Origin: Cumulibacter manganitolerans | Lineage (GTDB): Bacteria; Actinomycetota; Actinomycetes; Mycobacteriales; Antricoccaceae | Length of the DNA stretch: 45,681 bases | Reading direction: 5' to 3' | Assembly: GCF_009602465.1 (NCBI RefSeq) | Contig: NZ_WBKP01000029.1 | Coordinates: forward strand, 1-45,681 | In this document: in pieces, positions 31,532 to 35,767 of the stretch | Numbering within the stretch: the stretch's first letter is position 1 | How the letters are laid out: each line of letters starts with the position of its first letter | Notes under the pieces: generated by a model | Told to the model about the DNA's origin: nothing | Databases searched by the model: none | What the model saw: only the letters and a program-made list of their open reading frames with translations | Translations under genes and position numbers: made by a program

Positions 31532-33174
31532 CCACGACGACTACCCGAGAAGAGGCTGCTCAGCAGGGCGCCGAGCAGGCGAAGGTCGACTACGACGTCG
31601 TCATCGTCGGAGCCGGCTTCTCCGGCATGTACCAGCTGCACAAGCTGCGTCAGCAGGGGATGACGGCGCACGTGTTCGAGACCGGCGACGACGTCGGCGG
31701 CACCTGGTTCTGGAACCGGTATCCCGGCGCGCGGGTCGACATCGAGTCGCACCACTACTCCTTCGGCTTCGACGAGCAGCTGCAGCAGGAGTGGGACTGG
31801 CAGGAGCGCTACGCGCCGCAGCCCGAGTTGCTGGCCTACGCGCGACACGTCTCCGAGCGGTACGACCTGCGCAAGGACATCAGCTTCTCCACGAAGGTCG
31901 AGGCGCTGGATTGGGACGACGCGTCGGGCACCTGGACGGTCCGCACCGACAACGGCGACCCGGTCACTTGCCGGTTCGTCATCCTCGCCACGGGCTGCCT
32001 GTCGGTACCGCAGCGCCCGAAGTTCGAAGGCCTCGACGACTTCAAGGGCGAGCTGTACTACACCTCCAGCTACCCCAAGGAGGGCGTCGACCTCTCGGGC
32101 AAGAAGGTCGCGGTGATCGGCACCGGATCGTCGGGCCTGCAGACGATCACCGCGATCGCGCCCGAGGTCGGCGAGCTGACGGTCTACCAGCGCACGCCCT
32201 CGTTCGCCGTACCGGCGCGCAACTACGAGCTCAGCGACGAGGACCGGCAGAAGTACAAGGCCAACTACTCGGAGATCCGCACGAAGAACTTCGCGTCGAA
32301 GGTCGGTTTCGACGACGGCCAGAAGGCCGGCGTCCTCGCCTCGGAGCTGCCGCCGGACGAGGTCCGCGCGATGCAGGACGATCGGTGGGAGTTCGGCGGC
32401 CTGAGCTACGGGTTCGCGTTCGGCGACATCCTGCTGGACGCGGCCGTCAACGAGCAGTTCGCCGAGTACGTGCGCGAGCGGATCCGCGAGCGCGTCAAGG
32501 ATCCCGAGCTCGCCGAGAAGCTTTCGCCGCGCACCTACCCGATCGCCAGCAAGCGGATGTGCGTCGACACCGGCTACTTCGAGGTCTACAACCAGGACAA
32601 CGTCACGCTGATCGACATCCACGAGAAGCCGATCGAGAAGTTCACCGAGGGCGGGATCATCGCCGGCGGCGAGGAGCGTGAGTACGACGTCGTCATCCTC
32701 GCGACCGGGTTCGACGCGATGACCGGCGCGGTCAACAAGATCGACATCACGGCACGCGGTAAGAAGCTGCGGGAGCACTGGGCGCACGGTCCGCAGACGT
32801 ACCTCGGCCTGATGGTCAGCGGGTTCCCGAACCTGCTGATGATCACCGGCCCGCAGAGCCCGTCGGTGCTGACGAACATGATGACGTCGATCGAGTACGA
32901 CGTCGACTGGATCAGCCGGCTGCTGACGGACATGCGCGATCGGGGCAAGACGCGCATCGAGGCGCGCCCGGAGTCCGAGCAGTGGTGGGTGAAGGCCAAC
33001 AACGACATCGCCGCGCTGACGCTGATGCCGCAGGCCCACTCCTGGTACATGGGCGCCAACATCCCCGGCAAGGAGCAGGTGTTCATGCCGTGGGTGGGCG
33101 GTTCCGACGTCTACATGGCGATCTGTGAAGGGATCGCGCTCGCCGGCAACTACCACGGCTTCAAGATGCAGTAG
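31528..33174 (+). CDS. Baeyer-Villiger monooxygenase-type flavoprotein
   Basis: Class B flavin monooxygenase similar to cyclohexanone monooxygenase, 548 aa. FAD motif GAGFSGMYQLHKL (28-40), GTWFWNRYPGARVD, NADPH motif GTGSSGLQ (198-205), second ATG motif LATGFDAMTG and C-terminal GPQSPSVLTNM are all in place. The BVMO fingerprint FxGxxxHxxxW reads FKGELYYTSSYP at 172-183, so the conserved His is Tyr178 and the Trp is Tyr182. The partner esterase suggests oxidative ketone degradation (ketone to ester/lactone to acid plus alcohol). With the altered fingerprint, activity or cofactor behaviour may differ. Confidence 0.88.
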   Translation: MTTTTTREEAAQQGAEQAKVDYDVVIVGAGFSGMYQLHKLRQQGMTAHVFETGDDVGGTWFWNRYPGARVDIESHHYSFGFDEQLQQEWDWQERYAPQPELLAYARHVSERYDLRKDISFSTKVEALDWDDASGTWTVRTDNGDPVTCRFVILATGCLSVPQRPKFEGLDDFKGELYYTSSYPKEGVDLSGKKVAVIGTGSSGLQTITAIAPEVGELTVYQRTPSFAVPARNYELSDEDRQKYKANYSEIRTKNFASKVGFDDGQKAGVLASELPPDEVRAMQDDRWEFGGLSYGFAFGDILLDAAVNEQFAEYVRERIRERVKDPELAEKLSPRTYPIASKRMCVDTGYFEVYNQDNVTLIDIHEKPIEKFTEGGIIAGGEEREYDVVILATGFDAMTGAVNKIDITARGKKLREHWAHGPQTYLGLMVSGFPNLLMITGPQSPSVLTNMMTSIEYDVDWISRLLTDMRDRGKTRIEARPESEQWWVKANNDIAALTLMPQAHSWYMGANIPGKEQVFMPWVGGSDVYMAICEGIALAGNYHGFKMQ

Positions 33175-33227
33175 CTCCGCCGTCCTCGCGCCGGTCACTC
33201 GACAGCGAGGTGCGCAGGGTTGCTCGA

Positions 33228-33280
33228 CAGCAAGGGTGCGCGGGATTCGTCGCTGACGACGAATCCCGCGCACCTTGCTG
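33228..33280. terminator. Strong hairpin between BVMO and DUF1304-like genes
   Basis: A perfect 18-bp stem (33235-33252 with 33257-33274, loop CTGA) extends outwards by six more pairs past a one-base bulge. A partial tandem copy of the left arm (CTCGACAGCGAGGTGCGCAG) precedes it. It is convergent to both neighbouring genes. A similar hairpin in the same orientation lies at 33884-33926. Confidence 0.8.
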
Positions 33281-33348
33281 GTAGGTAGGCGAAGCGGCCC
33301 CGCGGAGGCGACTGCGGACCACCTGCCGGCAGCGCCGCATCGTCGTCC

Positions 33349-33747
33349 CTAGAGCGCGATCGCGACCAGTGCGACGGCCGGGAGGATCACCGAGCCCACG
33401 GTGCCGCGGACGCTTCCGCCGCGCGGGCGCCAGTACCCGATCAGGTCGGCGACGCCCATGAACAACGACGAGAACAGCATGTAGATGCAGCACACGACCA
33501 CCACGGTGGTTCCGGTCACCGCGTCGGCGTAGCCGACCATCCACAAGCCGATGAACGTGCCGACGCCGACGAGGGCGTTCCTGGCGCCGATGCAGAACGA
33601 CCACAGGTGCACCTGCCGCAGGCCGCTCGCCTCGATGCCGAGAAACCGCTGCACCCAGGGGCGATCGATGAGGAAGGCCTCCAGGGGGAACACGACGATC
33701 AGCAGCAGCGCCGAGAGCCCGGCGGCGAGCTGCGCGACTGCGTTGAT
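33349..33747 (-). CDS. DUF1304-like small membrane protein, probable ATC start
   Basis: Small integral membrane protein, 132 aa if started at the ATC codon at 33745-33747, with four hydrophobic segments. From the conventional GTG at 33693 it would be only 114 aa and lose the first helix. The frame upstream continues in family-like sequence (NAVAQLAAGLSALLLIVV, then FPLEAFLIDRPWVQRF), and a perfect GGAGG (33753-33757) lies 5 nt before the ATC. No ATG, GTG or TTG occurs in frame upstream of 33693 before a stop. DUF1304 members are membrane proteins of unknown function with a conserved Glu in the first helix and an Asn later (GARNALVG). Hairpins bracket it. Confidence 0.65.
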   Translation of the reverse strand: MNAVAQLAAGLSALLLIVVFPLEAFLIDRPWVQRFLGIEASGLRQVHLWSFCIGARNALVGVGTFIGLWMVGYADAVTGTTVVVVCCIYMLFSSLFMGVADLIGYWRPRGGSVRGTVGSVILPAVALVAIAL

Positions 33748-33883
33748 GGTGACCTCCGCCGAAGACTTGCGCCGGTGGCAATCGGCACGCGGGTAGTACC
33801 GACCTCCATGGTCGGCGCTCCCGATGGCTTGTCAAGCCCGCTCGCGGTGTCCGGCACCGCCGCCGGACAGGGTGCCCAAAAGC

Positions 33884-33926
33884 AAGGTGCGCGGGTTCGT
33901 CCCTAAGGACGAATCCCGCGCACCTT
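33884..33926 (-). terminator. Strong hairpin after accA3
   Basis: The stem 33884-33902 with 33907-33926 (19 pairs, one-base bulge, loop CTAA) has the same arm sequence GGTGCGCGGG, TTCGTC as the hairpin at 33235. The right flank CTGGTAGGCAG followed by CGAAGCGGC is also shared. It lies about 26 nt beyond the accA3 stop on the minus strand. Upstream, 33824-33869 holds two further small palindromes (GGCTTGTCAAGCC; TGTCCGGC/GCCGGACA). Confidence 0.78.
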
Positions 33927-33952
33927 ACTGGTAGGCAGTCGAAGCGGCGCCG

Positions 33953-35767
33953 CTACTCGGCGTCCTTGATCTCGCAGATCACGGTGCCCTGGGTGACCGG
34001 GTCGCCGGGGGAGCCCTGCAGGCCGGTGATCACGCCGTCCTTGTGCGCAGTCACCGGGTTCTCCATCTTCATCGCCTCGAGGACGACGACGAGTTCGCCG
34101 GCGGAGACCGACTGGCCCTCCTCGACGGCAACCTTGACGATGGTGCCCTGCATCGGGGCGGTGACCGAGTCGCCGGAGGCCGCGGAGCCGCTGCCGCCGC
34201 CCATCTTGCGCTTCTTCGCGGCCTTCTTCGGCCCGGTGCCGTTGCCGCCGAAGGACAGGTCGCCCGGCAGCGAGACCTCGACGCGCTTGCCGCCGACCTC
34301 GACGACGACCGTGTGCCGCGGCAGCGTCTCGTCGTGCGCCTCGGCGCCGCCGGTGAACGGCTCGACCTGGTTGTCGTACTCGGTCTCGATCCAGCGGGTG
34401 TGGACGTCGAAGCCCTCGGCGGGCTTGCCGTCCTTGTCGGCGGCGATGAACGCGGGGTCGCGGACGACGGCGCGGTGGAACGGGATGACCGTCGCCATGC
34501 CCTCGACCTGCAGCTCGTCGAGCGCGCGCCGCGAGCGCTCCAGCGCCTGCGTGCGGTCCTTGCCGGTGACGATCAGCTTGCCCAGCAGCGAGTCGAACTG
34601 GCCGCCGATGACCGAGCCGGTCTCGACGCCGAAGTCCATGCGCACGCCCGGGCCGGACGGCTCGACGAGCTTGGTGACGGTGCCCGGGGCGGGCAGGAAG
34701 TTGCGGCCGGCGTCCTCGCCGTTGATGCGAAACTCGAACGAGTGCCCGCGCGGCTCCGGATCCTCGGTGTACGGCATCGCCTTGCCCTCGGCGATGGCGA
34801 ACTGCTCGCGGACGAGGTCGAAGCCGGAGGTCTCCTCGGTGACCGGGTGCTCGACCTGCAGGCGGGTGTTGACCTCGAGGAACGAGATCACGCCGTCCTG
34901 GCCGACGAGGAACTCGCAGGTGCCGGCGCCGTAGTAGCCGGCCTCCTTGACGATCTTCTTCGACGCCTCGTGCAGGCTGGCGCGCTGCTCCGCGGTCAGG
35001 AACGGCGCGGGCGCCTCCTCGACGAGCTTCTGGTTGCGGCGCTGCAGCGAGCAGTCGCGGCTGCCGACGACGATCACGTTGCCGTGCTGGTCGGCCAGCA
35101 CCTGGGTCTCGACGTGCCGGGGCTTGTCCAGGAACCGCTCGACGAAGCACTCGCCGCGGCCGAACGCGCTCTCGGCCTCGCGGACGGCGGAGTGGAACAG
35201 CTCGGGGATCTCCTCCATCGTGCGGGCGACCTTCAGGCCGCGGCCGCCGCCGCCGAAGGCCGCCTTGATCGCGACCGGCAGGCCGTGCTCCTCCGCGAAC
35301 GCGATGACCTCGTCCGGCCCGTTGACCGGGTCGGCGGTGCCGGGCACCAGCGGAGCGCCGGCCTTCATCGCGATGTGGCGGGCGGTGACCTTGTCGCCGA
35401 GCGCCTCGATCGCCGACGGCGGCGGACCGATCCAGATCAGGTCGGCGTCGATCACGGCCTGCGCGAAGTGCGCGTTCTCGGACAGGAAGCCGTAGCCGGG
35501 GTGGATCGCGTCGGCGCCGGACTTCTTGGCCGCGTCGATGAGCTTGTCGATCACCAGGTAGGACTCGGCCGACGTGCTGCCCCCGAGCGCCACGGCCTCG
35601 TCGGCCATGCGCACGAACGGCGCGTCACGGTCGGGGTCGGCGTACACCGCGACGGAGCCGATGCCGGCGTCCTTGCACGCGCGGATGACGCGTACGGCGA
35701 TCTCACCGCGGTTGGCGACGAGCACCTTCTTGATGGCGGTGGTGTCGCCCTCGCTCTGTACAGGCAT
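33953..35767 (-). CDS. accA3: Acyl-CoA carboxylase alpha subunit (biotin carboxylase + BCCP)
   Basis: Biotinylated alpha chain of the acyl-CoA carboxylase complex, 604 aa. N-terminal biotin carboxylase domain ([21 protein letters not shown]), ATP-grasp glycine loop [22 protein letters not shown], then the C-terminal carrier domain with EAMKM, biotinylated Lys567. It forms malonyl- and methylmalonyl-CoA with the beta subunit encoded in the same operon. The ATG at 35767 follows AGAAAGG; an upstream extension to 35794 is unlikely. It is the last gene of the accD5-accE-maf-accA3 operon and is biotinylated by BirA, encoded 5 kb away. Confidence 0.93.

Follow-up and report, generated by a model that had tools for sequence, protein, structure and literature searches.

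The minus-strand frame 33349-33831 of the window (the whole stretch of 45,681 nucleotides analysed, contig NZ_WBKP01000029.1 of Cumulibacter manganitolerans) raises the question of where its gene begins. The frame is open from stop to stop over 160 codons, and GTG 33693 is the first ATG, GTG or TTG within it. Upstream of GTG 33693 the same frame encodes EVT-INAVAQLAAGLSALLLIV. The initial annotation placed the start further upstream, at ATC. Experimental characterisation exists for very few non-standard start codons, according to passages of PMC5472188.

The open frame and its start region

Two parts of the proposal could be read directly. A perfect GGAGG had been claimed exactly 5 nt before the ATC at 33747-33745, and it is present at 33757-33753. 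A frame scan also confirmed that no standard start lies ahead of GTG 33693 back to the upstream stop. The features of the locus are collected in Table 1.

Table 1. Features of the DUF1304 locus, in window coordinates.
Feature	Position	Strand	Remarks
DUF1304-family membrane-protein gene	33349..33747	minus	ATC to TAG, 132 residues; PF06993 match
ATC at start-codon position	33745..33747	minus	ATG (16) or GTG (11) there in 27/27 distinct alignable orthologues
GGAGG Shine-Dalgarno	33753..33757	minus	5 nt (TCACC) upstream of ATC; read from sequence
GTG, first standard in-frame start	33691..33693	minus	taken to be a valine codon inside the gene (residue 19)
Out-of-frame ATG frame, 36 codons	33699..33809	minus	overlaps ATC start; part of frame 33699-33902; judged non-gene
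Inverted repeat CCGACC-ATGGA-GGTCGG	33799..33815	minus	seen in sequence; candidate operator
Direct-repeat copy with hairpin	33893..33953	plus	upstream of gene
Direct-repeat copy with hairpin	33243..33303	plus	downstream of gene

TTGACA, a candidate promoter element, precedes the inverted repeat at 33835-33830 on the minus strand, and the two may represent a promoter element and an operator. Promoter and terminator scans over 33150-34050 returned none, including no sigma-70-type promoter, and the leader RNA folded no differently from shuffled sequences (z 0.02).

The protein and the DUF1304 family

The 132-residue protein belongs to the DUF1304 family, scoring 47.6 bits against the PF06993 gathering cut-off of 26.9, with residues 11-130 matching positions 2-109 of the 110-position profile. 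The family has one match in the C. manganitolerans genome at E 0.001. Its identity to the remaining 16 clade rows, whose lengths are 132-133 codons, is 64-76%, and 70/132 alignment columns are invariant between the window protein and 7 orthologues. A structure model was built from the window protein and 7 orthologues (mean pLDDT 71.8, C-terminus poor). Helices were predicted along the full length at residues 2-27, 30-36, 40-73, 76-102 and 113-131, and their hydrophobic character points to a membrane location. The first of these predicted helices agrees with the initial annotation, which had proposed a full first membrane helix upstream of the GTG. A search of PDB sequences gave no match up to E 1, and among the 6 papers listed for DUF1304 none dealt, judged by title, with its function.

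Translation could instead begin at GTG 33693 and produce a 114-residue protein, since this is the first standard in-frame start and PF06993 still matches the shorter protein at 41.5 bits. That start would, however, drop residues 1-18, which make up 17/26 residues of the predicted helix 2-27, leaving 9. By eye there is no Shine-Dalgarno sequence ahead of it, and in 27/27 distinct orthologues a start codon lies 18 codons upstream. GTG 33693 itself aligns with V19, which is invariant in 8/8 proteins. We consider initiation at this codon very improbable.

The start codon in relatives

Orthologues were sought in the genus (3 genomes), the family (5 genomes), the order (397 genomes, E 1e-10) and the class (394 genomes, E 1e-15); the counts include the genome under study and the sets overlap. 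The family of genome G559 was also searched (341 genomes, E 1e-15), and patterns were run against the GTDB contig collection, which yielded 7 loci, all from Nocardioides. Seven loci from the class and G559-family searches were identical in coding sequence to these 7 named loci, and the family of G559 was therefore taken as Nocardioidaceae and genus g122 as Nocardioides.

A total of 36 loci were examined. L016 was dropped because it gave no alignment at 1e-5, as was L050, whose N-terminus was unaligned and whose extrapolated codon, GGA, was left uncounted. For L017 and L020, which align from residue 4 onwards, the position of the start codon was obtained by extending the alignment without gaps. 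Seven loci duplicate others, so that the 34 alignable loci represent 27 distinct sequences. The proposal that the residues upstream of GTG 33693 form a family-like N-terminus held for all of these, as 34/36 loci (27 distinct) align there and every one has ATG or GTG at the codon.

The codon matching the window ATC is ATG in 18 and GTG in 16 of the alignable loci. Among the 27 distinct orthologues it is ATG in 16, GTG in 11 and ATC in none; ATG had been expected. In the clade with the closest sequence (L034, 76% identity) ATG occurs in 6/6 rows (L034, L035, L036, L037, L040 and L041). Three of these, L035, L037 and L040 from Nocardioides, read CAGGTCACC-ATG-AACGCAGTCGC, and the window reads GAGGTCACC-ATC-AACGCAGTCGC. 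Within the shorter block the two are one base apart, AGGTCACC-ATG-AACGCAGTCGC in the three Nocardioides loci and AGGTCACC-ATC-AACGCAGTCGC in the window. The start of L034 is AGGTCCCC-ATG. Given the codons of the relatives and these near Nocardioides blocks, ATC was taken as the orthologous start; a single-base change from ATG to ATC would be its simplest history.

On the evidence of these alignments, ATC 33747-33745 is the start position of the DUF1304 membrane-protein gene. The locus has a non-standard codon at the orthologous start and no standard in-frame start upstream, as a gene with a non-standard AUH start should. It is a well-supported example, by comparison of sequences, of a known kind of gene with ATC at the start position.

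A single base separates the window from the expected ATG, and the assembly is a draft of 136 contigs, so the true base might be G and the gene might start with ATG after all. Against a sequencing or assembly error, the start region has a single match in the genome when up to 3 mismatches are allowed over 25 bases, which argues that no repeat is collapsed there. If this is a short-read assembly, a substitution error in the consensus would also be rare. We regard an error at this base as improbable.

The Nocardioides genes resemble the window gene in length, in protein identity (64-76% in the near clade) and in starting at the matching codon. They differ from it in their ATG or GTG start, their upstream context and a weaker Shine-Dalgarno sequence in 16/16 clade rows. 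The leaders of L034-L037, L040 and L041 contain the palindrome GTCAG-TAAGA-CTGAC or a similar one ∼115-135 bases before the start, and this is possibly an operator.

In the Nocardioides loci L007, L009 and L011 the DUF1304 start adjoins the stop of an upstream gene that contains V/IVDxGGGHG and looks methyltransferase-like by eye, an arrangement that suggests translational coupling. By eye, a remnant of this upstream gene in the window leader seemed plausible, but it was rejected after 21 frame-by-tail comparisons, in which at least 82/1000 shuffles reached the score. A related possibility is translation of the overlapping ATG 33809 frame that leads into the gene, either by frameshift or by a stop at 33699 followed by restart at GTG 33693. 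A gap of 5 bases separates the end of this out-of-frame ORF from GTG 33693, and in several Nocardioides relatives the upstream gene ends at the start. Such a restart would yield a truncated protein, however, and in 7/7 comparisons the frame does not significantly resemble the tail of the upstream gene, the best score being reached by 82/1000 shuffles. We find this route scarcely credible.

infC and the strength of the ribosome-binding site

The infC gene offers a comparison from the same genome. The initial annotation had cited infC-type genes as a precedent for ATC starts, and the C. manganitolerans infC (L052) does start with ATC; its frame begins right after a stop, as GGAGGACTC-ATC-AGC. 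GGAGG-N4-ATC is found at the infC start in 5/5 family genomes, this one included (L051-L055), so that ATC behind a strong ribosome-binding site is in conserved use. In 4/5 of these genomes the stretch from the upstream stop to the ATC has no in-frame ATG, GTG or TTG; the G003 frame begins far upstream and contains some standard starts.

Shine-Dalgarno duplex energies were calculated with what we take to be the anti-Shine-Dalgarno sequence. The window gene gave -10.7 kcal/mol, matching infC in strength (-10.2 to -11.5 kcal/mol). Its Shine-Dalgarno sequence is the strongest in the 17-row clade, where the other 16 range from -2.6 to -7.8 kcal/mol, and the third strongest of 28 rows.

pcnB of E. 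coli starts with AUU. Like the window gene, it is a gene other than infC with an AUH start, but gene, codon and organism differ. Passages of PMC5472188 describe ATT as the infC start in E. coli and ATC in Streptomyces, where IF3 represses non-standard starts; the infC starts of the family genomes agree with Streptomyces. The window gene and infC are alike in having ATC with GGAGG 4-5 nt upstream, as the infC of the same genome does. They are unlike in that infC is essential, autoregulated and has ATC in 5/5 family genomes, whereas the window ATC is found in one genome, at the start of a gene for an uncharacterised membrane protein. With ATC in 0/27 distinct orthologues, the window gene lacks the conserved non-standard start that would be expected of an IF3-regulated gene. 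Streptomyces sigR, which has a GTC start and is IF3-repressed according to passages of PMC5472188, is likewise an actinobacterial gene with a non-standard start that a standard-start annotation would get wrong. Whereas the start of sigR has been tested experimentally, that of the window gene is read from sequence and its ATC is unconserved.

The abstract of PMC5622118 states that weak starts are compensated by changes in the Shine-Dalgarno sequence, while in its results coupled switches of start codon and Shine-Dalgarno strength did not reach significance. Passages of that paper list no switch to AUC among 61,358 ancestral AUG starts. AUC is usable as a start in a chloroplast gene, according to passages of PMC9845219 that cite other work.

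ATC candidates in the same genome

The survey of gene-like frames covered 848,891 bases of the 3,904,919-base genome, made up of 40 pieces of 20 kb, the window and the infC locus. The pieces came from the first 40 kb of each of the 19 largest contigs, or the first 80 kb in the case of the largest, a non-random sample. Under a coding-score filter, on 856 frames, no ATC candidate other than the window gene emerged, but infC, the known positive, was missed. A looser filter (679 gene-like frames) generated 3 cases of ATC 4-9 nt after GGAGG or AGGAG and ahead of the first standard start. One was infC, deliberately included; the others were the window gene and a case in L059 with an extension that looks non-coding by eye. 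ATC is not enriched in the looser survey, as 46 other triplets each turned up between 1 and 10 times, and for this reason the motif count alone proves nothing. Whether the window ATC exceeds chance is settled by orthology between sequences, not by the Shine-Dalgarno motif alone.

Origin and locus context

The DUF1304 gene had no match in 4/4 other family genomes. In two congeners both flanking genes, labelled by eye as a putative carboxylase and a putative monooxygenase, are adjacent, their matched parts separated by 105 and 154 bases. These short spacers are predicted to fold into long hairpins that differ from those of the window. In G004 other sequence follows the carboxylase end. In the window the gene is bracketed by two 61-base direct repeats, 87% identical and 650 apart, each within a strong hairpin. 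Within the C. manganitolerans genome they occur only at the DUF1304 locus at E 0.01.

In the midpoint-rooted tree the window protein falls within a 17-row group whose other 16 members are all Nocardioides (support 96/91). Its branching inside the group is unsettled, with a sister relationship to the other 16 among the options. The simplest reading of tree and distribution is a probable acquisition of the gene from a Nocardioides-like donor, with the direction of transfer inferred; loss in the family relatives is a possible alternative. The window gave 0 Rfam matches, 36 pattern matches in viral contigs included no relative, and a tblastn search of plasmids gave no match.

Selection on the gene

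Over codons 19-132, dN/dS between the window gene and 16 relatives was 0.26-0.49 (0.26 for L034), in every case <0.5. Four pairs of relatives gave 0.23-0.29, so that the window comparisons are mostly higher, with one overlap (0.26). Codons 2-18, which offer few sites, ranged from 0.18 to 2.0 and exceeded 1 in 3/16 window comparisons. These ratios show past constraint on the coding sequence, undated with respect to the ATC change. Selection on the window gene is perhaps mildly relaxed.

The ratios bear on a different history, in which ATG changed recently to ATC in this strain, leaving a nearly silent gene that is becoming a pseudogene. The absence from 4/4 other family genomes indicates that the gene is dispensable to the family, its dN/dS is mostly above that between relatives, ATC occurs in none of the 27 distinct orthologues, and AUG to AUC switches look very rare in passages of PMC5622118. 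A gene in decay is nevertheless harder to reconcile with an intact frame and motifs, dN/dS <0.5 over codons 19-132, a strong Shine-Dalgarno sequence at the proper spacing, and an infC in the same genome that uses AUC. Recent loss of the start is possible, though we lean against it.

Discussion

We favour, with little more than even confidence, an acquired gene in which ATG changed to ATC at the true start and which is translated from AUC at a low, IF3-sensitive rate. The DUF1304 gene would have been transferred from a Nocardioides-like donor, and its ancestral ATG would have become ATC by a G to C change at the third base. AUC would then be read by initiator fMet-tRNA, aided by the strong Shine-Dalgarno sequence. 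The initiation rate would be low and held down by IF3, as expected for infC with its AUC start. Both active initiation at AUC and IF3 control of the window gene are what we infer from the DNA.

Active initiation at AUC is suggested by the duplex energy of -10.7 kcal/mol, the ATC of the infC in the same genome, the intact frame and the dN/dS below 0.5. Several points count against it. ATC at this codon is known from a single genome, and the gene is absent in four family genomes. Passages of PMC5622118 list no AUG to AUC switches and report joint Shine-Dalgarno and start switches as not significant. The third-base mismatch of AUC with CAU should initiate poorly, an extrapolation from passages of PMC10158994, outside which the pair itself lies. 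The possible mild relaxation of selection, a leader fold like that of shuffled sequences (z 0.02) and a scan that detected no sigma-70-type promoter also stand on this side. A stronger version, in which the ATG to ATC change was paired after transfer with the gain of a perfect GGAGG as a recent natural recruitment to IF3-sensitive translation, like infC, seems to us unlikely.

Annotation tools assume ATG, GTG or TTG, and a gene of this kind would likely lose 18 residues in annotation. Should the start be active, the ancestral ATG, the altered codon and the stronger ribosome-binding site would be directly comparable.
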